DNA of 64,000 nt, from positions 186,001 through 250,000 of the forward strand of contig JAGIAR010000001.1 in the NCBI GenBank assembly GCA_017744735.1. The letters run 5' to 3'. Made by a program: the position numbers and the translations under genes. Below the pieces are notes generated by a model that made no database searches, had not been told where the DNA came from, and saw nothing but the letters and a program-made list of their open reading frames with translations. Shown one piece after another: positions 10,972-20,161 of the stretch. Source of the DNA: Novosphingobium sp. (GTDB lineage Bacteria; Pseudomonadota; Alphaproteobacteria; Sphingomonadales; Sphingomonadaceae). How positions within the stretch are numbered: the stretch's first letter is position 1; every line of letters begins with the position of its first letter.

Positions 10972-13056
10972 ATGAAGCTTCGCCAACTCGCCGCCGCCGT
11001 GATGCTGCTCGGTGCCTGCCTTGCGGGCGCCGCCTGGGCCGCCGGCAAGGTCGATCCGCTGGCCTCCCCGCTTCCGGGGGCGTGGACCAGCGACGGGCGC
11101 GACTACAGCGCGCAGCGCTACAGCCCGCTGACCCAGATCACCGCCGCGAACGTCGGCAAGCTGGGGCTCGCGTGGTACGACGACCTCGGCACGATGCGCG
11201 GGATCGAGGCGACCCCGCTCTACGCCGACGGGGTGCTCTACAACACGCTCGCGTGGAACATCACCAGCGCCTACGACGCGAAGACCGGCAAGAAATTGTG
11301 GACCTACGATCCCCAGGTGCCGCGCGAATACGGCCGCTATGCCTGCTGCGAGCCGGTTGCCCGCGGGCTCGCCATGTCGGGCAACAAGATCATCATCGGC
11401 ACGCTCGACGGGCGGCTGATCGCGCTCGACAGGAAGACCGGCAAACCGCTCTGGACCACCGAGACCTTCCCCGAAGAAACCAAGGATAAATACGCCTATT
11501 CGATCACCGGCGCTCCGCGGGTGTTCGGCGACATGGTGGTGGTCGGCCAGTCGGGCGGGGACCTCGGCGTGCGCGGCTTCGTCGCCGCGTGGGACGTGAA
11601 CACCGGCAAGAAGCGCTGGAAGTTCTTCCTCACCCCCAATCCCGAGGGCAAGCTCGACGGCGAGGCCTCGGACCCGATCATGGACATGATCCGCAAGACC
11701 TGGTCCGACGAGGGCATGTGGAAGACGCTGGGCGGCGGCGCGAACCCGTGGGATTCGATCGCCTACGATCCGGTCAACAAGCTCGTGTTCGTCGGCACCG
11801 GCAATTCCAGCCCGCATTCGCAGTTCTACCGCAGCCCGGGCGGCGGCGACAATCTGTTCGTCTGCTCGATCGTCGCGCTGCACGCGGACGACGGGTCCTA
11901 TGCCTGGCACTACCAGCTCGTCCCCGGAGAGGAATGGGACTACACCTGCACCTCCTCGATGATCCAGGCCGACCTGACGATCGACGGCAAGCAGCGCCAG
12001 GTGCTGATGCAGGCGCCCAAGGACGGCTTCTTCTATGTCCTCGACCGCAAGACCGGGAAGCTGATCAGCGCCAAGCCGCATGTGAAGACCAACTGGAATC
12101 TCGGTTTCGACGCGAACGGCCGCCCGAACGTCAATCCGGCGGTGCGCTACGATACCGATCCGGTGCTGGTCTATCCGGGCCCCGGCGGCGCGCATAACTG
12201 GTTCCCGATGGCGTTCAGCCCGAAGACCGGGCTGGCCTATTTCCCGTCCTACCAGTCGGGCTTCGTTTACGCCCGGCAGGAAGGCTGGACCCCGCAGCCG
12301 TTCCGTTCGAACAGCGGCTGGGGCGGCTATTCGGGCGATGCGCTGAAGAAGCGGATCGAATTGCAGAAGCAGGCCGACGCCGACGAGAAGGCGTGGCTGA
12401 CCGCGTGGGATCCGGTGAAGCAGCAGGTCGCCTGGCAGGTGCCCCTGCCGCGCCACGGCAACGGCGGGGCGATGGTAACCGCGTCGAACCTGGTGTTCGA
12501 AGGCACGACCAAGCAGACCTATGCCGCCTTCGACGCGCGAACCGGCAAGGTCCTGTGGGAATTCCCGACCCAGAGCGCCCCGGTTGCGGGCGGGATCACC
12601 TACATGCTCGACGGCGTGCAATATGTCGCGGTCAACGCCGGCTGGGGCGGCGGTGCGGCGCAGGTCGAGCGCGGCGCCGGCACCGAACTGCCGCGCGCCA
12701 ACGCCCGGCTGCTGGTGTTCAAGCTCGGCGGCACGAAGCAGCTTCCGCCGCTCGCCAAGACCGACCCGATCCCCCAGCCCCCGCCGCTGCGCGGCACCGA
12801 GGCGCAGATCCAGAAGGGCGCCCAGCTGTTCGCCGACACCTGCGCCCAGTGCCACGGGCGGCTCGCGGTCGGCGGGGTCAAGGATCTGCGCCATCTGACG
12901 CCGGAGACCCACGCCAAGTTCAACGACATCGTGCTCGGCGGGATCTACAAGGACAAGGGCATGGCGAGCTTCGCCGACATCCTCAAGCCCGAGGACGCCG
13001 AGGCGATCCACGACTACCTGATCGCCCGCGCGAACGAGGACTGGGGCGGGAAGTAG
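10972..13056 (+). CDS. PQQ-dependent alcohol dehydrogenase with C-terminal cytochrome c (second copy)
   Basis: A 694-residue quinohaemoprotein. The N terminus has a signal segment with a possible lipobox (LLGAC), so it may be lipid-anchored. The vicinal cysteines are C125-C126 in YACCEP, the metal region includes DGEASD and GTGNSSP, the catalytic aspartate is in EEWDYTCT (D-x-T, so calcium type), and the haem motif CAQCH is at 624-628. The C-terminal cytochrome is nearly the same as in the copy at 5390 (GGVKDLR, YLIARANED), so the two are paralogues. It ends an operon whose genes overlap or nearly touch. A TTG nine bases upstream is in frame, but ATG at 10972 gives the better signal peptide. 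Two copies with different substrate pockets may act on successive alcohols. Confidence 0.93.
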   Translation: MKLRQLAAAVMLLGACLAGAAWAAGKVDPLASPLPGAWTSDGRDYSAQRYSPLTQITAANVGKLGLAWYDDLGTMRGIEATPLYADGVLYNTLAWNITSAYDAKTGKKLWTYDPQVPREYGRYACCEPVARGLAMSGNKIIIGTLDGRLIALDRKTGKPLWTTETFPEETKDKYAYSITGAPRVFGDMVVVGQSGGDLGVRGFVAAWDVNTGKKRWKFFLTPNPEGKLDGEASDPIMDMIRKTWSDEGMWKTLGGGANPWDSIAYDPVNKLVFVGTGNSSPHSQFYRSPGGGDNLFVCSIVALHADDGSYAWHYQLVPGEEWDYTCTSSMIQADLTIDGKQRQVLMQAPKDGFFYVLDRKTGKLISAKPHVKTNWNLGFDANGRPNVNPAVRYDTDPVLVYPGPGGAHNWFPMAFSPKTGLAYFPSYQSGFVYARQEGWTPQPFRSNSGWGGYSGDALKKRIELQKQADADEKAWLTAWDPVKQQVAWQVPLPRHGNGGAMVTASNLVFEGTTKQTYAAFDARTGKVLWEFPTQSAPVAGGITYMLDGVQYVAVNAGWGGGAAQVERGAGTELPRANARLLVFKLGGTKQLPPLAKTDPIPQPPPLRGTEAQIQKGAQLFADTCAQCHGRLAVGGVKDLRHLTPETHAKFNDIVLGGIYKDKGMASFADILKPEDAEAIHDYLIARANEDWGGK

Positions 13057-13070
13057 CGCCGCCCCAGTCC
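13038..13070 (+). terminator. Hairpin spanning the stop codon of the second PQQ dehydrogenase
   Basis: GGACTGGGGCGG and its exact complement CCGCCCCAGTCC form a 12-base-pair stem whose nine-base loop contains the TAG stop codon. The REP sequence begins directly after the right arm, at 13071. There is no T-run, so it may act by protecting the mRNA end rather than as a classical terminator. Confidence 0.55.
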
Positions 13071-13090
13071 AATTCGGTGACAGTTTACTT
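13071..13090 (+). repeat. REP sequence 1
   Basis: AATTCGGTGACAGTTTACTT, the 20-base core shared by the REP copies around the RAYT gene. It is in forward orientation, 37 bases upstream of the RAYT start. Confidence 0.85.
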
Positions 13091-13127
13091 AATTGACGGT
13101 TGGGCCAGCGCGGGTTAGCTCCCGCGG

Positions 13128-13820
13128 ATGGCCCGCCTCGCCCGCATCGTGATCCCCGGGGTCGCGCACCACGTCACCCAGCGCGGCAACCGCAGGCAGC
13201 CGGTGTTCTTCTCCGACGATGACCGCACGCGCTATCTCGGTCTGCTCAAGGGCGGCTGCGCAAAGGCCGACGTGCGCTGCCTCGCGTGGTGCCTGATGGA
13301 CAACCACGTTCACCTGGTGCTGGTACCGACCGATGCGGACGGACTGCGCAAGGCGCTGGCCGACGCCCACCGGCGCTACACGCTGGCAATCAACCTGCGC
13401 GAGGGCTGGAGCGGTCATCTGTTCCAGGAGCGCTTTGCGAGCTATCCGATGGACGACGCGCATCTGATGGCGGCGGTGCGCTATGTCGAGCGCAACCCGG
13501 TCGCGGCCGGGCTTGTGCGTGAGGCGGCGGACTGGCGCTGGTCGAGCGCGGCGAGCCATATCGCCGGCAGGCGGGTCGCCGGCGATCCGCTCACCGATGT
13601 CGCGGCGCTCGGCGCGCATGTCGGCAACTGGCGCGCGCTGCTGCAATACGGGCTCGAAGCAGGCGATGTGGGCGCGGAAGGCGAAGCGGTTGCCGAGGCG
13701 ATCGAGAAGCGGCTGAGCACCGGGCGGCCGTTTGCGGAAGCGGAATGGATCGCGGCGGTGGAGAAATCCAGCGGCCGGTCGCTGGCCTTGGGCAGGCGAG
13801 GTCCGAAGCCGCGAGGGTAA
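13128..13820 (+). CDS. REP-associated tyrosine transposase (RAYT, IS200-like Y1 family)
   Basis: A 230-residue HUH-type single-strand DNA transposase. The metal-binding HUH motif is H60-V-H62 in MDNHVHLVLVP, and the nucleophilic tyrosine is Y84 in HRRYTLAIN. Other family marks are HHVTQRGN near the start and VERNPVAAGLV later. RAYTs are domesticated relatives of IS200 transposases that handle REP sequences rather than moving as full insertion sequences. Here the gene is flanked on both sides by copies of the same REP core, one upstream and three downstream, with two more at 18.8 kb, which fits a working RAYT-REP pair. The ATG at 13128 follows the upstream REP. The active site looks intact. 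Confidence 0.92.
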   Translation: MARLARIVIPGVAHHVTQRGNRRQPVFFSDDDRTRYLGLLKGGCAKADVRCLAWCLMDNHVHLVLVPTDADGLRKALADAHRRYTLAINLREGWSGHLFQERFASYPMDDAHLMAAVRYVERNPVAAGLVREAADWRWSSAASHIAGRRVAGDPLTDVAALGAHVGNWRALLQYGLEAGDVGAEGEAVAEAIEKRLSTGRPFAEAEWIAAVEKSSGRSLALGRRGPKPRG

Positions 13821-13825
13821 ACGCC

Positions 13826-13911
13826 AATTCGGTGACAGTTTACTTTTTACGGGCCAGCGGACGTTCCTCGCGCAGTGGCTTTGGCCGTAAAAAGTAAACT
13901 GTCCCCGAATT
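13826..13911. repeat. REP pair 2/3 in inverted orientation (BIME-like)
   Basis: Forward REP at 13826-13845 and inverted REP at 13892-13911. The match extends beyond the core through TTTTACGG and GCCA, so the two arms of about 30 bases could fold into one long hairpin with a loop of about 26 bases. The right copy differs by one base in the core (GGGGACAG for GGTGACAG). It lies directly after the RAYT stop codon. Confidence 0.85.
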
Positions 13912-13930
13912 GCTTGGCGAAACCTCTAAT

Positions 13931-13949
13931 TAGTAAACTGTCACCGAAT
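13931..13949 (-). repeat. REP sequence 4 (inverted)
   Basis: TAGTAAACTGTCACCGAAT, the complement of the REP core. Its last base touches the stop codon of the PiT gene (13949-13951), so this copy forms the 3' end of that gene's transcript. Confidence 0.8.
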
Positions 13950-14950
13950 CAGAACAGCCTGGTCAGCAGGTAGAAGCCGGCGCCCACCAGCCCGCTTGCC
14001 GGAATGGTGATGAACCAGGCGACGATCACCCGGCTGGCGACGCTCCAGCGCACCGCGCTGGCGCGGCGGGCGGCGCCGGTGCCGACCACCGCGCCGGTGA
14101 TCGCATGGGTGGTCGAGATCGGGATGCCCATCGCGCTTGCGCCGAACACCACGATCGAGCTGGCGGTCGAGGCGCAGAAGCCCGAGTGGTGGTTGAGCTT
14201 GGTCAGGCCGGTGCCCATCGTCTTGATGATCTTCCACCCGCCCGAGACGGTGCCGAGCGAGATCGCCGCGTAGCAGCCGAGCACGACCCATTCGGGCACG
14301 TAGAAGGTCTTGCCGAGATGGCCGGTGGAATAGAGCAGCACCGCGATCACGCCCATGGTCTTCTGCGCGTCGTTGCCGCCGTGGCTGATCGAATAGGCGG
14401 CGGAAGATATCAGATGCAGGCCCTTGAAATTCTTGTCCGCGGTGCGCGGCGCGGCGCCCCTGAACATCCAGCTCGTCGCGAGCATCAGGATCATCGCGAT
14501 GCCGAAGCCGATGATCGGCGAAAGGAAGATCGCGAGCACCGTCTTGTTGGTGCCGTCGAACTCGACCACCCCGAAGCCCGCGTGCGCCATGCCGGCGCCG
14601 AGCAAGCCGCCGATCAGCGCGTGGCTGGACGAGGACGGGATGCCCTTGATCCAGGTCACCACGTTCCAGAACATCGCGCCCACCAGCGCGCCGAACACCA
14701 CCGCCGGGGTCACCGCATCCTTGTCGATGATCCCCTTGCCCACGGTCTCGGCAACGTGCAGGCCGACGATCCAATAGGCGAGGAAGTTGCCGATCGCGGC
14801 GAAGATCACCGCGTGGAGCGGGTTGAGCAGCTTGGTCGAGACGACCGTCGCGATCGCGTTGGCGGCGTCGTGCAACCCGTTGAGGAAGTCGAACGCCAGC
14901 GCCATCACGACGAGCGCGACCAGCAGCGGAAATGCCAGGGTGTGTTCCAT
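13949..14950 (-). CDS. pit: Inorganic phosphate transporter, PiT family
   Basis: A 333-residue inner-membrane carrier for low-affinity uptake of phosphate (as a metal-phosphate complex, driven by protons or sodium). The two inverted signature repeats are visible: FDFLNGLHDAANAIAT near residue 20 and SISHGGNDAQKTMGV in the second half, along with GIPSSSSHALIGG and GIPISTTHAITGAVVG. About ten membrane helices are expected. Its ATG overlaps the stop codon of the upstream Nudix-DUF47 gene by one base (TAATG), so the two are translated together. DUF47/PhoU-like proteins commonly control PiT carriers. The stop codon touches an inverted REP sequence. Confidence 0.95.
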   Translation of the reverse strand: MEHTLAFPLLVALVVMALAFDFLNGLHDAANAIATVVSTKLLNPLHAVIFAAIGNFLAYWIVGLHVAETVGKGIIDKDAVTPAVVFGALVGAMFWNVVTWIKGIPSSSSHALIGGLLGAGMAHAGFGVVEFDGTNKTVLAIFLSPIIGFGIAMILMLATSWMFRGAAPRTADKNFKGLHLISSAAYSISHGGNDAQKTMGVIAVLLYSTGHLGKTFYVPEWVVLGCYAAISLGTVSGGWKIIKTMGTGLTKLNHHSGFCASTASSIVVFGASAMGIPISTTHAITGAVVGTGAARRASAVRWSVASRVIVAWFITIPASGLVGAGFYLLTRLF

Positions 14951-16101
14951 TACGAGTGGTCGATCACCAGGCCGTCGATCTCGTTCGCGACATCCTCGAA
15001 GCGGTCGACCACGCGCTCGAGCCGCTTGAACATCTCCTGCCGGACGAAGAACTGCAGCGGATCCTTCTTGCCGATCTGCTTGTAGATCCGCTTGAGGCCG
15101 GCGGCGTGGATCTCGTCCGCATGGCCTTCGATCCGCACGATCCGCTCGGTTAGCTCGTGCAGGCGGTGGCCGTTCTCGGCGATCCGGCGCAGCAGCGGGA
15201 TCGCTTCGGCGGTGAGGCGCGCGGCATCGACGATGCTTGCCGCCATGTCGCGCATTTCGGGCTCGAATTCGTTGACCTCGTAGAGCTCGGCGGCGCCGGC
15301 GGTCTGGTACATCTCGTCGATCGCATCGTCCATCGAGGCGATCAGGCTGGTGATCGCGCCGCGATCGAACGGGGTGAGGAAGGTGCGGCGTACGGTCTGC
15401 AGGACTTCGCGGGTGATCGCGTCGGCATCGTGCTCGCGTTCCTGCAGCTCGCGGATGTGGTCCGCCTTGCCCGGCCCGCCCTGGAGCAGCCGCGCCAGCG
15501 AATCCGCGCCGGCGACCAGCGTCGTCGCATGGGCTTCGAACATCTCGAAGAAATTGCCCTGTTGCGGCAGCAGCCGCTGAAACCACCCGAACATCATGCT
15601 TATCCCTGTTTTTGCGCCGACAGCCCCGAACACGCGCCGCCCTGCGACCAACATGTTACGGGTTTGTGTCGCCGCGATGAATTCGCTCGGCCCGAAGCTG
15701 TGCATCAGATCGCGCAGGTCTGGCTCGTCGACCGCCTCGGCCGCCTCGGCGAGGGTGAACCAGCGCCGTTCGCGCTCGTTCTGCTCCTTCCAGCTCGGCA
15801 ATTCCTCGGTCACGGCGAAGGGGAACACATCCACGTCCGTCCACACCGCCGCGCCCGACGGCTGCCGCTTGCGATAGCGGAACGAGCCGAGCGGCGTCGG
15901 GCAGGTCGCGCCCAGCACGCCGGCCTCTTCCTCGGCTTCCTTCGCCGCGCTTGCGTGGGGGGTGAGCTTGCTTTCGGGGCGCCCCTTCGGGATCACCCAG
16001 CGCCCGGTGCCGCGCGAGCTCACCAGCAGGATCTGGATCGGCGCGTCGATCGCCGGGCCCTCGGTGCGATAGGGCAGAACTGCAATTTGCCGCATCGCCA
16101 T
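14950..16101 (-). CDS. Fusion of a Nudix hydrolase with a DUF47/PhoU-like phosphate-transport regulator
   Basis: A 383-residue reading frame with two parts. Residues 1 to about 150 form a Nudix hydrolase; the Nudix box at 40-62 keeps EAEEEAGV, but the usual first glutamate is Leu (L46), as in some diphosphoinositol-type relatives. Residues 169-383 match a complete DUF47 protein of about 215 residues, which normally stands alone and controls the PiT carrier encoded next. A second start is possible at M169 (15597), with AGGGA a suitable distance upstream, so both a fusion and a free DUF47 protein could be made. The stop codon overlaps the pit start. The fusion suggests a link between polyphosphate or nucleotide-phosphate hydrolysis and phosphate uptake. 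Confidence 0.85.
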   Translation of the reverse strand: MAMRQIAVLPYRTEGPAIDAPIQILLVSSRGTGRWVIPKGRPESKLTPHASAAKEAEEEAGVLGATCPTPLGSFRYRKRQPSGAAVWTDVDVFPFAVTEELPSWKEQNERERRWFTLAEAAEAVDEPDLRDLMHSFGPSEFIAATQTRNMLVAGRRVFGAVGAKTGISMMFGWFQRLLPQQGNFFEMFEAHATTLVAGADSLARLLQGGPGKADHIRELQEREHDADAITREVLQTVRRTFLTPFDRGAITSLIASMDDAIDEMYQTAGAAELYEVNEFEPEMRDMAASIVDAARLTAEAIPLLRRIAENGHRLHELTERIVRIEGHADEIHAAGLKRIYKQIGKKDPLQFFVRQEMFKRLERVVDRFEDVANEIDGLVIDHS

Positions 16102-16209
16102 CGGCTTGAATCCCCTCTCGGTCGCACAAGCCGTTCGGCTAGGGAAATGACGGGACTATGACAAACCCGCCGTGGTTCCTATTCGCATCTTTCCGGCCGT
16201 GCGGAAAGC

Positions 16210-16848
16210 TCACCCTTCGAGCAGCGCGAGCGGATTGGGCTGCGGCTCGGCGATCTTGCGCAGCGTGTTCCGGTCGCGATGCTGGAACAGGCCCTGCTGC
16301 CCCTTCACCGCCAGCATCGTATCGGACACATAGCTCCAGCTGCCGTCGGGATTGAAGGTGATCTCCAACCGGTAGGAATCGGTGCGGAAGGCATGTTCGA
16401 GGAAATCGGTGGAGCAGATGCCGTAGGCGGTGTCGCCGCGGGTGGCCGAGACCACCAGCCGGTCCGCATCGGGCTCCGCCTGCCCCCTGGCGAGCGCGAT
16501 CTGGCCGCGCGGGATCGCGAGGGTCTGCATCACCAGCCCGGTCGCCGGCTCCCACAGCCAGTAGCCGACCTGGTCGTGAAAGGTGATCTGCTCTTCGGGC
16601 GTGTTGATATGGACATGGTAGCGCAGGCCGTAGAGCAGCTGCGGCCCGTTCGCCTGCGGATCGATCGGCTCCATCACGATCCGTTCGAGATAGTCGCGCG
16701 TCTCGGGGCCTTCGGCCTTCGGATTGACGTCGACCCCGCGCAGTCCCTCCCAGGTTCCGGCGAGCCGGCGCAGCGGGCCGAGATTGTTCAATCCGTGCGG
16801 ATCGACGTCTTCGGGTTCGGTAAAAATGTCGTCGGGAAATTCGGCCAT
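16210..16848 (-). CDS. Nitrobindin/FABP-like haem-binding beta-barrel protein (THAP4-type)
   Basis: A 212-residue cytosolic protein with the fatty-acid-binding-protein-like barrel used by nitrobindins. The GTWEG motif at 31-35 starts the barrel, and later strands include TFHDQVGYWLWEPATGLVMQ and ITFNPDGSWSYVSDTML. Some members bind haem and react with nitric oxide or peroxynitrite; the proximal histidine cannot be fixed with certainty, although FQHRDRNTL near the end is a candidate. The start at 16848 has a good ribosome-binding site (GAGGGGC). It stands alone, divergent from a tannase-family gene. Confidence 0.75.
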   Translation of the reverse strand: MAEFPDDIFTEPEDVDPHGLNNLGPLRRLAGTWEGLRGVDVNPKAEGPETRDYLERIVMEPIDPQANGPQLLYGLRYHVHINTPEEQITFHDQVGYWLWEPATGLVMQTLAIPRGQIALARGQAEPDADRLVVSATRGDTAYGICSTDFLEHAFRTDSYRLEITFNPDGSWSYVSDTMLAVKGQQGLFQHRDRNTLRKIAEPQPNPLALLEG

Positions 16849-17170
16849 GTGCCCCTCGCGGTCGATGGCCGACCTAAACCCCGAAACCCGCTGGGCGCAA
16901 CCGGCAAATAGGCCCGCCCCCGGCCTTTCCGAGCACCGGGGGCGGGCAACCGCCGGGCCGGGGGAGAAGGCCCGGCCCGCGGCGGTATCGCAGCCGCCCT
17001 GGCAAACGGCCCGATATATCGTGTTGGTAATGACTCGCATTAGCATATTTAGAGACGGTTTTCCCTCGCGTCAAGCAAGGGCCCGGCGGCTCTCAGGCAA
17101 GGCCGGTGGACAGGCTCCGCCAGCCCGGTTATTCCTGCGCAAACAACCGGAATTCAGGGGGAGAGAGACG
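16849..17170. other. Divergent intergenic region
   Basis: This 322-base gap separates the nitrobindin-like gene from the first tannase-family gene. It holds GC-rich sequence near the left gene and a shorter AT-richer patch around 17010-17060 that includes a Fur-like site. No small gene or RNA was recognised. Confidence 0.6.
17029..17044. promoter_or_regulatory. Possible Fur-type site
   Basis: AATGACTCGCATTAGC. The core AATGACTCGCAT is also present, inverted, upstream of tonB (52471-52493), and resembles sites upstream of the siderophore receptor and the PepSY gene. Here it lies about 130 bases before the tannase-family gene, so iron control of that gene is possible but less expected. Confidence 0.35.
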
Positions 17171-18775
17171 ATGGGCGGATTGCGGAAACCTTGGCGCGTG
17201 GCCCTTGGCGGAGCCGCTTCCGGGGCATTGCTCGCTTTCGCGGCGCCCGCCGCGGCCGCCGGCTGCGGCGATCTTGCCAAGCTCGATCTCGGCCAGGGCA
17301 AGGTCACTTCGGCCACGGTGATCGCCCCCGGCAGCTTCGAGCAGCCGGCCGCCGGGTTCGGCCCGCCGCCCGGGGTCGCAAACGCGGTCTACAAGAACCT
17401 GCCCGCCTTCTGCCGGGTGCAGGCGACCCTCACTCCCACCCCGGATTCGGACATCAAGGTCGAGGTCTGGCTTCCCGAGAAGGGCTGGAACGGCAAGTTC
17501 GTGGGCATCGGCAACGGGATCTGGGCCGGCCAGCTCAGCTATTCGCAACTCGCCGATCCGCTGTCCAAGGGCTATGCGGTCGCCACCACCGACACCGGGC
17601 ACACCGGCAGCGGGCTGACCGCCGAATGGGCGGTCGGCCATCCGGAAAAGCTGGTCGATTTCGGCCATCGCGCGGTGCATCTGATGACCGTGACCGGCAA
17701 GGCGGCGGTCAAGGCGCGCTACGGCAAGGCGCCCAAGCTGTCGTTCTGGAACGCCTGCTCCACCGGCGGGCGGCAGGGGCTGATGGAAGCCTATCGCTAT
17801 CCCGACGATTACGATGCGATCTCGGCGATGGCCCCGGCCAATCCGATGACCGCGCTGATGACCCAGAGCATGTGGCAGAACTGGGTGACCAAGCGCGAGC
17901 CGGGCGCGGCGCTGACCCCGCCGATCCTGGGCCTGGTCCATGCGGCGGTGATCCGGCAGTGCGACAAGCTCGACGGGCTGGAGGACGGCCTGGTGTCGCG
18001 CCCCGATGCCTGCGGCTTCGATCCCGGAACGCTGCTGTGCAAGCCCGGCACGACCGAAAGCTGTCTGACCCAGCCGCAGGTCAACGCGATGCGCGCGGTT
18101 TATGACGGCGTGCGCGCGAACAATGGCGACTGGCTGCTGCCGGGCTGGCCGGTGGGCAGCGAGATGCAGCTCGCGGCCCTGGTGAGCGGACCGCGCCCGT
18201 TCCCGGTCGCCTACGACTATTTCAACCTGCTCACCTACGGCGGCCGGCAGGGCTGGGACTGGAAGTCGATGGACTACGCGGTCGCCCTCGCCGACGCGCG
18301 GCAATACGGTGCCGGCATCCTCGATGTGCCGTCCGACGGGCTCGGCCCGTTCTTCGCGCGCGGCGGCAAGCTGCTGATGAGCCACGGCTGGACCGACGGG
18401 CTGATCCCGGCGAACAATTCGCTGGCGTTCTATCGCGGGCTTTACGGCGCGCTGCCGGCAGGCGCGGCGCAAAACCAGCTCCGCCTGTTCATGGTCCCGG
18501 GCATGGATCACTGCTCGGGCGGCGACGGCGCAACCGATTTCGATACGCTCGGTGCGATCGACGCCTGGGCGACCACCGGCCTCGCCCCCAACCGCATCGT
18601 CGCGACGCGTCCGACCACCCCGCCCCCGGGCATGCCGGGCGCCCCGCCCGCGGCGCCGCGCGAGCCGCTGTCGCGTCCGCTGTGCCCCTATCCCGAGGTG
18701 CCCGAATACAAGGGCTCGGGCGACCCGTCGATGGAGACCAGCTTCACCTGCGCGCTGCCGAAGGACGCAAGCTGA
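17171..18775 (+). CDS. Tannase/feruloyl esterase family protein, exported (copy A)
   Basis: A 534-residue exported esterase that would split ester bonds of phenolic acids (gallate, ferulate or similar). A signal peptide covers about 1-30. The catalytic triad is visible as S197 (CSTGGRQG), D409 (HGWTDGLIP) and H447 (GMDHCSGG). The cysteines next to the Ser and His (C196 and C448) form the disulfide that is typical of this family. A C-terminal Pro-rich stretch precedes RPLCPYPEVPEYKGSG. The start has GGGGAGAGAG as ribosome-binding site. It is convergent with the MFS gene and belongs to the same locus as copy B and a TonB-dependent receptor, pointing to use of plant polyphenol esters. The exact substrate cannot be read from sequence. 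Confidence 0.92.
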   Translation: MGGLRKPWRVALGGAASGALLAFAAPAAAAGCGDLAKLDLGQGKVTSATVIAPGSFEQPAAGFGPPPGVANAVYKNLPAFCRVQATLTPTPDSDIKVEVWLPEKGWNGKFVGIGNGIWAGQLSYSQLADPLSKGYAVATTDTGHTGSGLTAEWAVGHPEKLVDFGHRAVHLMTVTGKAAVKARYGKAPKLSFWNACSTGGRQGLMEAYRYPDDYDAISAMAPANPMTALMTQSMWQNWVTKREPGAALTPPILGLVHAAVIRQCDKLDGLEDGLVSRPDACGFDPGTLLCKPGTTESCLTQPQVNAMRAVYDGVRANNGDWLLPGWPVGSEMQLAALVSGPRPFPVAYDYFNLLTYGGRQGWDWKSMDYAVALADARQYGAGILDVPSDGLGPFFARGGKLLMSHGWTDGLIPANNSLAFYRGLYGALPAGAAQNQLRLFMVPGMDHCSGGDGATDFDTLGAIDAWATTGLAPNRIVATRPTTPPPGMPGAPPAAPREPLSRPLCPYPEVPEYKGSGDPSMETSFTCALPKDAS

Positions 18776-18785
18776 CGAGCGGATC

Positions 18786-18864
18786 AATTCGGCGGCAGCT
18801 TACGCATTTCAGGTTGCGCGAAGCACGCGGCGGCGCATCCTAATTGGTAAACTGTCACCGAATT
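18786..18864. repeat. REP pair 5/6 (one degenerate), 5 kb from the RAYT gene
   Basis: A degenerate forward copy AATTCGGCGGCAGCTTACGC at 18786-18805 and an inverted good copy GGTAAACTGTCACCGAATT at 18846-18864. The order, forward then inverted, is the same as the pair downstream of the RAYT gene. It lies between the convergent tannase-family and MFS genes. Confidence 0.75.
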
Positions 18865-18873
18865 ACCCCAGTC

Positions 18874-18913: not shown

Positions 18914-20161
18914 TCAATCGAACGCGGTGGTCAGTTCCGGCGCCGCCACCTCGCCCACGATGCGCGGTGCGGTTTCCTTCAGGAACAGCGCGGTCACGCC
19001 GCCCAGCACCGCCACGGCGGCGAGGAACCAGCACGGCGCCGCAAGCCCGTAGGCATCCGACAGCCGCCCGGCGAGCGACGGGCCGAACACTCCGCCAAGG
19101 ATCTCGCCCACCCCCATCACGATCCCCATCGCGGTCGCGACCTGGCGCGGGCTGACCGATTCGCTCGGCACGGTGGCCATGAACATCGGGAATATCCCGT
19201 TGAACAGCCAGCCGACGAAGAACAGCACGCCCATCACCCAGGCCGAGCCGGTGTAATAGATCGCCGCCAGCGGCAGGACGACGCCGACGAACGGCATCGC
19301 CACCATCACCGGCTTGCGCCCGATGAAGTCCGACAGGGCGGTGACGGCGAAGCTCGCGAGGAAGGACGAGACCCCGAGGACCGCCATCAGATTGGCCGCG
19401 GTCTGCTTGTCGATCCCGCGATACTGGGTCAGCACCAGCGGCATGAACGACCAGGTGATCACCAGATAGGACACCAGCAGAACCGCCATCACCGCGCAGG
19501 CGACGACGTTGCGGTTGCCGAGCGTCTCGACCAGCGGCAGCCGCTCGCCCGCCACCCGCTGCGGCGCCTTCGGGATCGATCGTTCGACCACGAACAGCAT
19601 CACCAGCAGCGCGCAGATCAGCCCCGGCACCGCCGCGAGGAAGAAGGCGTGGCGCCAGCCCCAGGCCAGTGCGACCGGCACCAGCACCAGCGGCGCGACG
19701 GTCGATCCCAGCAGGCTGGAGCCGACGTTCTGAGTCACCCCCATCGCCAGCGCGCGCCATTTGGGGCTGACTTCGGCCGCGACCATCGCGTGGCTGATCG
19801 GCATGACCCCGCCTTCGGAAAGGCCCATCAGCAGGCGCGCGGCGAACAGCGTGAGGAAGGTCGAGGCGAGCCCCGAAACCACCGAGCAGACCGAGAAGAT
19901 CAGCCCGGCGGTGACGATGATGATCTTGCGCCGGGCGATCTTGTCGGACAGCCAGCCGACGAAGATCGCCGCCACCGCCCAGGTGAACGACAGGCCCGCG
20001 CCGAGCAGGCCGACCTCGGTGTAGCTCAGCCCCAGCTCGGGCTGGATGAACGGCATCAGGAAGTTGATCGCGTTGCGATCGAAGAACAACACCCCGAAAT
20101 TGACGCACAAGATCGCGACCAGCACGATCTGGTATCGGGCACTCGAACGGCCTGCCTGCAT
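18914..20161 (-). CDS. MFS transporter, anion:cation symporter (ACS)-like
   Basis: A 415-residue inner-membrane carrier with about 12 helices. The motif FFDRNAINFLMP in the first helix and GWLSDKIARRK in the loop between helices 2 and 3 fit the ACS branch, which takes up organic anions including aromatic acids. The start has GGGGGAGAG upstream. It lies 36 bases after tannase-family copy B on the same strand, which itself follows a TonB-dependent receptor, so the three are probably one operon: outer-membrane entry, ester cleavage and inner-membrane uptake. A gallate- or hydroxycinnamate-like substrate is inferred from context only. Confidence 0.88.
   Translation of the reverse strand: MQAGRSSARYQIVLVAILCVNFGVLFFDRNAINFLMPFIQPELGLSYTEVGLLGAGLSFTWAVAAIFVGWLSDKIARRKIIIVTAGLIFSVCSVVSGLASTFLTLFAARLLMGLSEGGVMPISHAMVAAEVSPKWRALAMGVTQNVGSSLLGSTVAPLVLVPVALAWGWRHAFFLAAVPGLICALLVMLFVVERSIPKAPQRVAGERLPLVETLGNRNVVACAVMAVLLVSYLVITWSFMPLVLTQYRGIDKQTAANLMAVLGVSSFLASFAVTALSDFIGRKPVMVAMPFVGVVLPLAAIYYTGSAWVMGVLFFVGWLFNGIFPMFMATVPSESVSPRQVATAMGIVMGVGEILGGVFGPSLAGRLSDAYGLAAPCWFLAAVAVLGGVTALFLKETAPRIVGEVAAPELTTAFD

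Follow-up and report, generated by a model that had tools for sequence, protein, structure and literature searches.

The window, i.e., the 64,000-nucleotide stretch of Novosphingobium sp. DNA that was analysed as a whole, contains at 13071-13950 a gene for an HUH single-tyrosine transposase flanked by the two ends of its element, which are inverted copies of each other. Judged from its sequence, this unit is very probably a TIRYT element (TIRtron). It is preceded by a 697-aa ORF ending at 13056 and followed by an ORF on the - strand beyond 13950. The features are collected in Table 1. The original prediction had placed an intact gene amid repeats, which the uninterrupted ORF bears out. It overlooked, however, that a single element is bounded by the copies at 13071(+) and 13931(-) and that its 38-nt arms span 13072-13109 and 13912-13949.

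Table 1. Features of the putative TIRYT element and of the second doublet (positions in the window).
Feature	Position	Strand	Description
Left TIR of element	13071..13109	+	Core 13071-13090 exact; 38-nt arm, 79% complementary to 13912-13949
TIRYT gene, 230 aa, HUH/Y1 transposase	13128..13820	+	Intact ORF, PF01797; H60, H62 and Y119 kept
Inverted TIR doublet between stop codon and right TIR	13825..13912	.	28-nt arms; strong hairpin, z -8.8
Right TIR of element	13912..13950	-	Core 13931-13950, 2 mismatches; inverted arm
Second, decayed TIR doublet between convergent genes	18786..18864	.	Core matches; weak fold, z -1.8

The window protein matched PF01797 in the Pfam scan with an E value of 2.6e-9. 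Its score against the RAYT family of NCBIfam (NF047646) was 63 bits, which is below the curated cut-off of 80. The two histidine residues and the catalytic tyrosine (H60, H62 and Y119) were invariant in alignments of 18 and of 40 sequences. The motifs of the window protein are NHVH and YVERNP, and the alignment consensus of the latter is YVELNP/YVExNP. Most TIRYTs have been assigned to TnpA-Y1 subclass 2.1, which has NHVH and the Y-motif YIELNP (Quentin et al. 2018, PMC6006769). Likened by motifs and by the description given there, the window protein resembles subclass 2.1 in NHVH, Y-x-x-x-NP, a length of about 230 aa, a C-terminal extension and no REP nearby. As to the C-terminal helix-turn-helix attributed to subclass 2.1, two C-terminal helices (183-198 and 205-215) are predicted by the structure model (mean pLDDT 88), in a region where Pfam had no match. 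The closest solved structure, by sequence profile as well as by fold, was the REP-bound RAYT 4er8 (22% identity), and the fold search also matched 2xm3, 2vjv and other HUH/Y1 structures of IS200/IS605. Similar to IS200/IS605 in its HUH/Y1 fold, the window element has inverted, unfolded ends, whereas IS200/IS605 members are described in PMC6006769 as having subterminal hairpins and no TIRs. In a sample of the phylum, 140 of 398 genomes matched the alignment at E<=1e-20, not all of which need be TIRYTs.

The core AATTCGGTGACAGTTTACTT was found within 3 mismatches at 13071(+), 13826(+), 13892(-), 13931(-) and 18845(-); the expectation from 100 shuffles was 0. Six copies had been claimed for the window, and the sixth, at 18786(+), carries mismatches at 5 of its 20 positions. 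The source genome, a 3.53-Mb draft of 18 contigs that is 92.7% complete, contained 10 copies of the 16-nt core at <=2 mismatches and none of the reversed-pattern control, so the core is not limited to the window. Five copies lay outside the window: two that form an inverted pair, one whose partner is degenerate and two on their own. The own ends of the window element read GGTGACAG, which is one base off GGGGWSAS, while the copy at 13892 reads GGGGACAG; the consensus of the family is CGGGGACA.

The gene had originally been read as a canonical RAYT accompanied by true REP sequences in the form of BIMEs. The HUH/Y1 gene and the repeat are both real, they occur together as in RAYT/REP/REPIN systems, the nearest solved structure is a REP-bound RAYT and the inverted doublets form hairpins. 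However, GTAG or GT[AG]G, by which REPs are recognized when it stands at the foot of a palindrome, was absent from the core, single core copies folded no better than their shuffles (z +1.2 and +1.4) and no covarying stem was found inside a TIR. The 10 genomic copies are also few, given that REPs are put at usually >100 per genome in the account of PMC2817692. Because the repeat is without GTAG and its single copies do not fold, it is not a REP. It is the terminal inverted repeat (TIR) of the element. A canonical RAYT with REPs is very unlikely here; the REP/BIME label is likely a mislabel, and the element a TIRYT/TIRtron and not a REPtron, although the inverted pairs do match the BIME layout in a loose sense. 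A hairpin formed by a single TIR was also considered: AATT is often near both sides, but complementarity within an end (4.09) was no higher than that between the two ends of an element (4.17), and the candidate was rejected.

Published TIRYTs are described in PMC3733652 as RAYT-like tyrosine transposase genes between long TIRs, and GGGGWSAS is common to the TIRs of some TIRYTs but not of all (Di Nocera et al. 2013). The window element shares with them the gene between TIRs at similar distances and TIRs that also occur in the genome as singles, dimers and groups, and its ends come within one base of the GGGGWSAS motif. It differs in the GGTGACAG variant present in most copies. Moreover, its relatives carry truncated arrays anchored at the element tip, for which no description was found in the relevant passages of PMC3733652. 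The feature in the window belongs to the known TIRYT kind, and the end arrays of its relatives are the part worth following.

For comparison, 99 elements were assembled: the one in the window, 20 from a search of 298 genomes of the family and 78 of 80 named loci (L103 and L154 were dropped because they duplicate L047 and L050); shorter or weaker matches of the family were left out. TIR pairs were assessed for 98 of the 99, the flank of the other being too short. In 69 of these 98 homologues the left and right TIRs matched with a higher score than any of 98 shuffles, so a tyrosine transposase gene flanked by TIRs was found in most of them as well as in the window. The other 29/98 did not surpass the best shuffle, which counts against the TIRYT reading. 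In the flanks, AATTnCGGGGACAnTATACTTAATT usually lay some tens of bases upstream of the start codon, and in most cases the same motif followed in inverted orientation directly after the stop codon. When the left and right ends of 96 elements were compared, identity was 0.44-1.0 over the stretch that starts at position -8 and includes the core, and about 0.2-0.3 beyond this stretch.

The original prediction had also tied the gene to its repeat family, and the link between transposase gene and repeat holds. The source genome has a single Y1 transposase gene, and the window protein was found in 0/5 congeners. Among the 298 genomes, a homologue was present in 9 of the 22 core-positive but in only 34 of the 276 core-negative ones (Fisher p 0.0014; core within 1 mismatch, source genome and fragmentary protein matches included), i.e., core and homologue tend to occur together. 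The 43 protein-positive genomes had 36 core copies (9 in the source genome) and the other 255 had 18. Six genomes contained at least three copies, five of them with a homologue. Some core matches, at L015, L017 and L024, lie in coding DNA and seem to be fortuitous, and the only match in the five congeners, a single one in one genome (L017), is probably due to chance. TIR distance was correlated with protein distance at both ends (Mantel r 0.32, n=86, and r 0.33, n=70; p<=0.0005), a correlation in which shared ancestry and co-evolution are unseparated. For 31 of 64 elements, no right TIR matched the left TIR better than the element's own. What this analysis demonstrates is the architecture of the TIRs, the boundary of the element and a link of TIR sequence to protein lineage.

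The two genes flanking the element (window 13056-13980) are far apart on the maps of the congeners G001-G003, and the element therefore lies at a breakpoint of gene order. No readable empty site of the whole element was found in the congeners, where the flanking genes are far apart.

Inverted pairs that fold into hairpins had been predicted at two places. The first stood: the arms of the doublet at 13825-13912 are 96% complementary and none of 200 shuffles equalled its fold. The second, at 18784-18866, is marginal, as 13/200 shuffles folded equally well. Its position between convergent genes was confirmed, with one ORF on the + strand ending at 18775 and another on the - strand spanning 18914-20161. 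The intergenic stretch holding this doublet is ~100 bp shorter in three congeners. Identity to the congeners is only about 71-77% in this region, too low for the boundary of an empty site of 18786-18864 to be located exactly. Two further genomic loci had inverted partners, C5 (z -6.5) and C12 (z -1.6), and the four doublets of the source genome span 78-86 nt. A common origin of the four loops was unconvincing, since even in the best of 12 comparisons 4 and 7 of 300 shuffles were equal. At the homologue loci L104, L151 and L167, full doublets with similar loops occurred at both gene flanks. On the simplest reading, the inverted TIR doublets are miniature derivatives, probably short passengers of the same system that have lost their interior and may be mobile.

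In many relatives, the complete end is followed on its outer side by tandem copies of itself, arranged head to tail and truncated inward; the window element has no such array. In a scan for exact tandem duplications with units of 7-60 bp, the first set provided 166 usable ends, with 32 ends lacking an anchor. The density was 3.08/kb in the 165-bp tip zone vs 0.22/kb >400 bp away. Duplications were found at 52/166 ends, on the left (35/88) more often than on the right (17/78; Fisher p 0.018). Of the 56 duplications that had an anchor at <=16 bp, 53 had their outer start 7-10 bp before GRGACA; counted by locus, this was the case in 35 of 37. The 7-10 range was kept for the second set, for which 53 loci were entered, partial genes having been excluded beforehand; two loci identical to earlier ones were dropped, and the 51 used gave 68 usable ends, 34 being skipped. 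Here, the densities were 2.54/kb in the tip zone vs 0.09/kb, and 15 of 16 loci started within the range. The binomial p values for these starts (3e-19 and 1e-8) treat 16 positions as equally likely and the loci as independent of each other, although related elements are not independent. Left-right identity of the 96 elements drops to background just outside -8, which puts the start of the arrays on the boundary of the element itself or 1-2 bases beyond.

The inner ends of the array units varied from -3 to +25. A control with 833 GRGACA hexamers at a distance of >400 bp from the gene gave 22 duplications near them; most are dispersed TIR copies, which contaminate this control. Such dispersed copies can also carry stutters, as at L013, L029, L032 and L035. 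The end duplications at L161 (93 bp) and L152 (82 bp) are nearly exact, and the L161 unit takes in the first codons of the gene. The array at L019 (family genome G128) is a hybrid of two TIR families, in which a partial TIR of the GGGG type runs straight into a tip of the GGTG type.

As outlined in PMC8266576, HUH enzymes form a 5'-phosphotyrosine together with a 3'-OH, and the latter is able to prime synthesis or to attack the phosphotyrosine. The transposase may recognise the TIR (family form AATTnCGGGGACAnTATACTTAATT, window form AATTCGGTGACAGTTTACTT) and nick the inward-reading strand at the tip of the TIR or immediately outside, which would leave the 5'-phosphotyrosine on the tip and the 3'-OH on the flank. 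The 3'-OH of the flank could then be extended over a short random distance before the tip, still bound to the tyrosine, is ligated to the newly made 3' end, so that each cycle would add one tip-anchored, inward-truncated copy of the end. A tip nick followed by short extension and religation would therefore yield tip-anchored duplications of variable length, without microhomology and with equal polarity at either end. Tentatively, TIRYT enzymes might stutter in this way, and the end arrays could be a record of the HUH nick-extend-religate cycle in living cells.

Two other origins of the arrays were weighed. Ordinary replication slippage or recombination between repeats, without involvement of the transposase, is somewhat unlikely. 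The TIRs are short, partly repetitive and intergenic, and arrays once present can grow by slippage, but an outer start that is fixed in 35/37 and 15/16 loci, 74 duplications starting at a tip vs 11 ending at one and junction microhomology that equals chance speak against it. Repeated insertion of new elements into old TIRs with later loss of the remainder of the old element would fit the hybrid array of L019. It is improbable, however, in that it predicts a forward remainder of the old TIR beyond the right end, where most loci have no forward core, and arrays of many partial copies would require equally many losses.

If the end arrays are products of the transposase, sequence alone places the nick within about 3 nt and fixes its strand. 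A cleavage and strand-transfer assay has been published for related enzymes in PMC8266576, by which the cut site and strand polarity read from the arrays are testable. In the parts of PMC6006769, PMC3733652 and PMC8266576 that deal with such genes, their ends are described only by sequence. No description of tip-anchored end arrays was found at the level of titles and opening lines of abstracts, in a search covering mainly freely accessible literature, and a literature search with six TIR oligonucleotides gave no match. The nick-site dinucleotide of the E. coli enzyme is given as C|T in PMC8266576; none was seen over 62 ends in this study.

Finally, two features of individual TIRs were observed. 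In several homologues, for instance L117, L127, L149 and L172, a TTGACA-like -35 box was recognized by eye directly inside the left TIR. Because this box adjoins the TIR, a protein bound there could affect its own promoter. The TIRs of L048 and L120 are themselves palindromic (AAATAGGGACAGTCCCTATTT), unlike those of other homologues.
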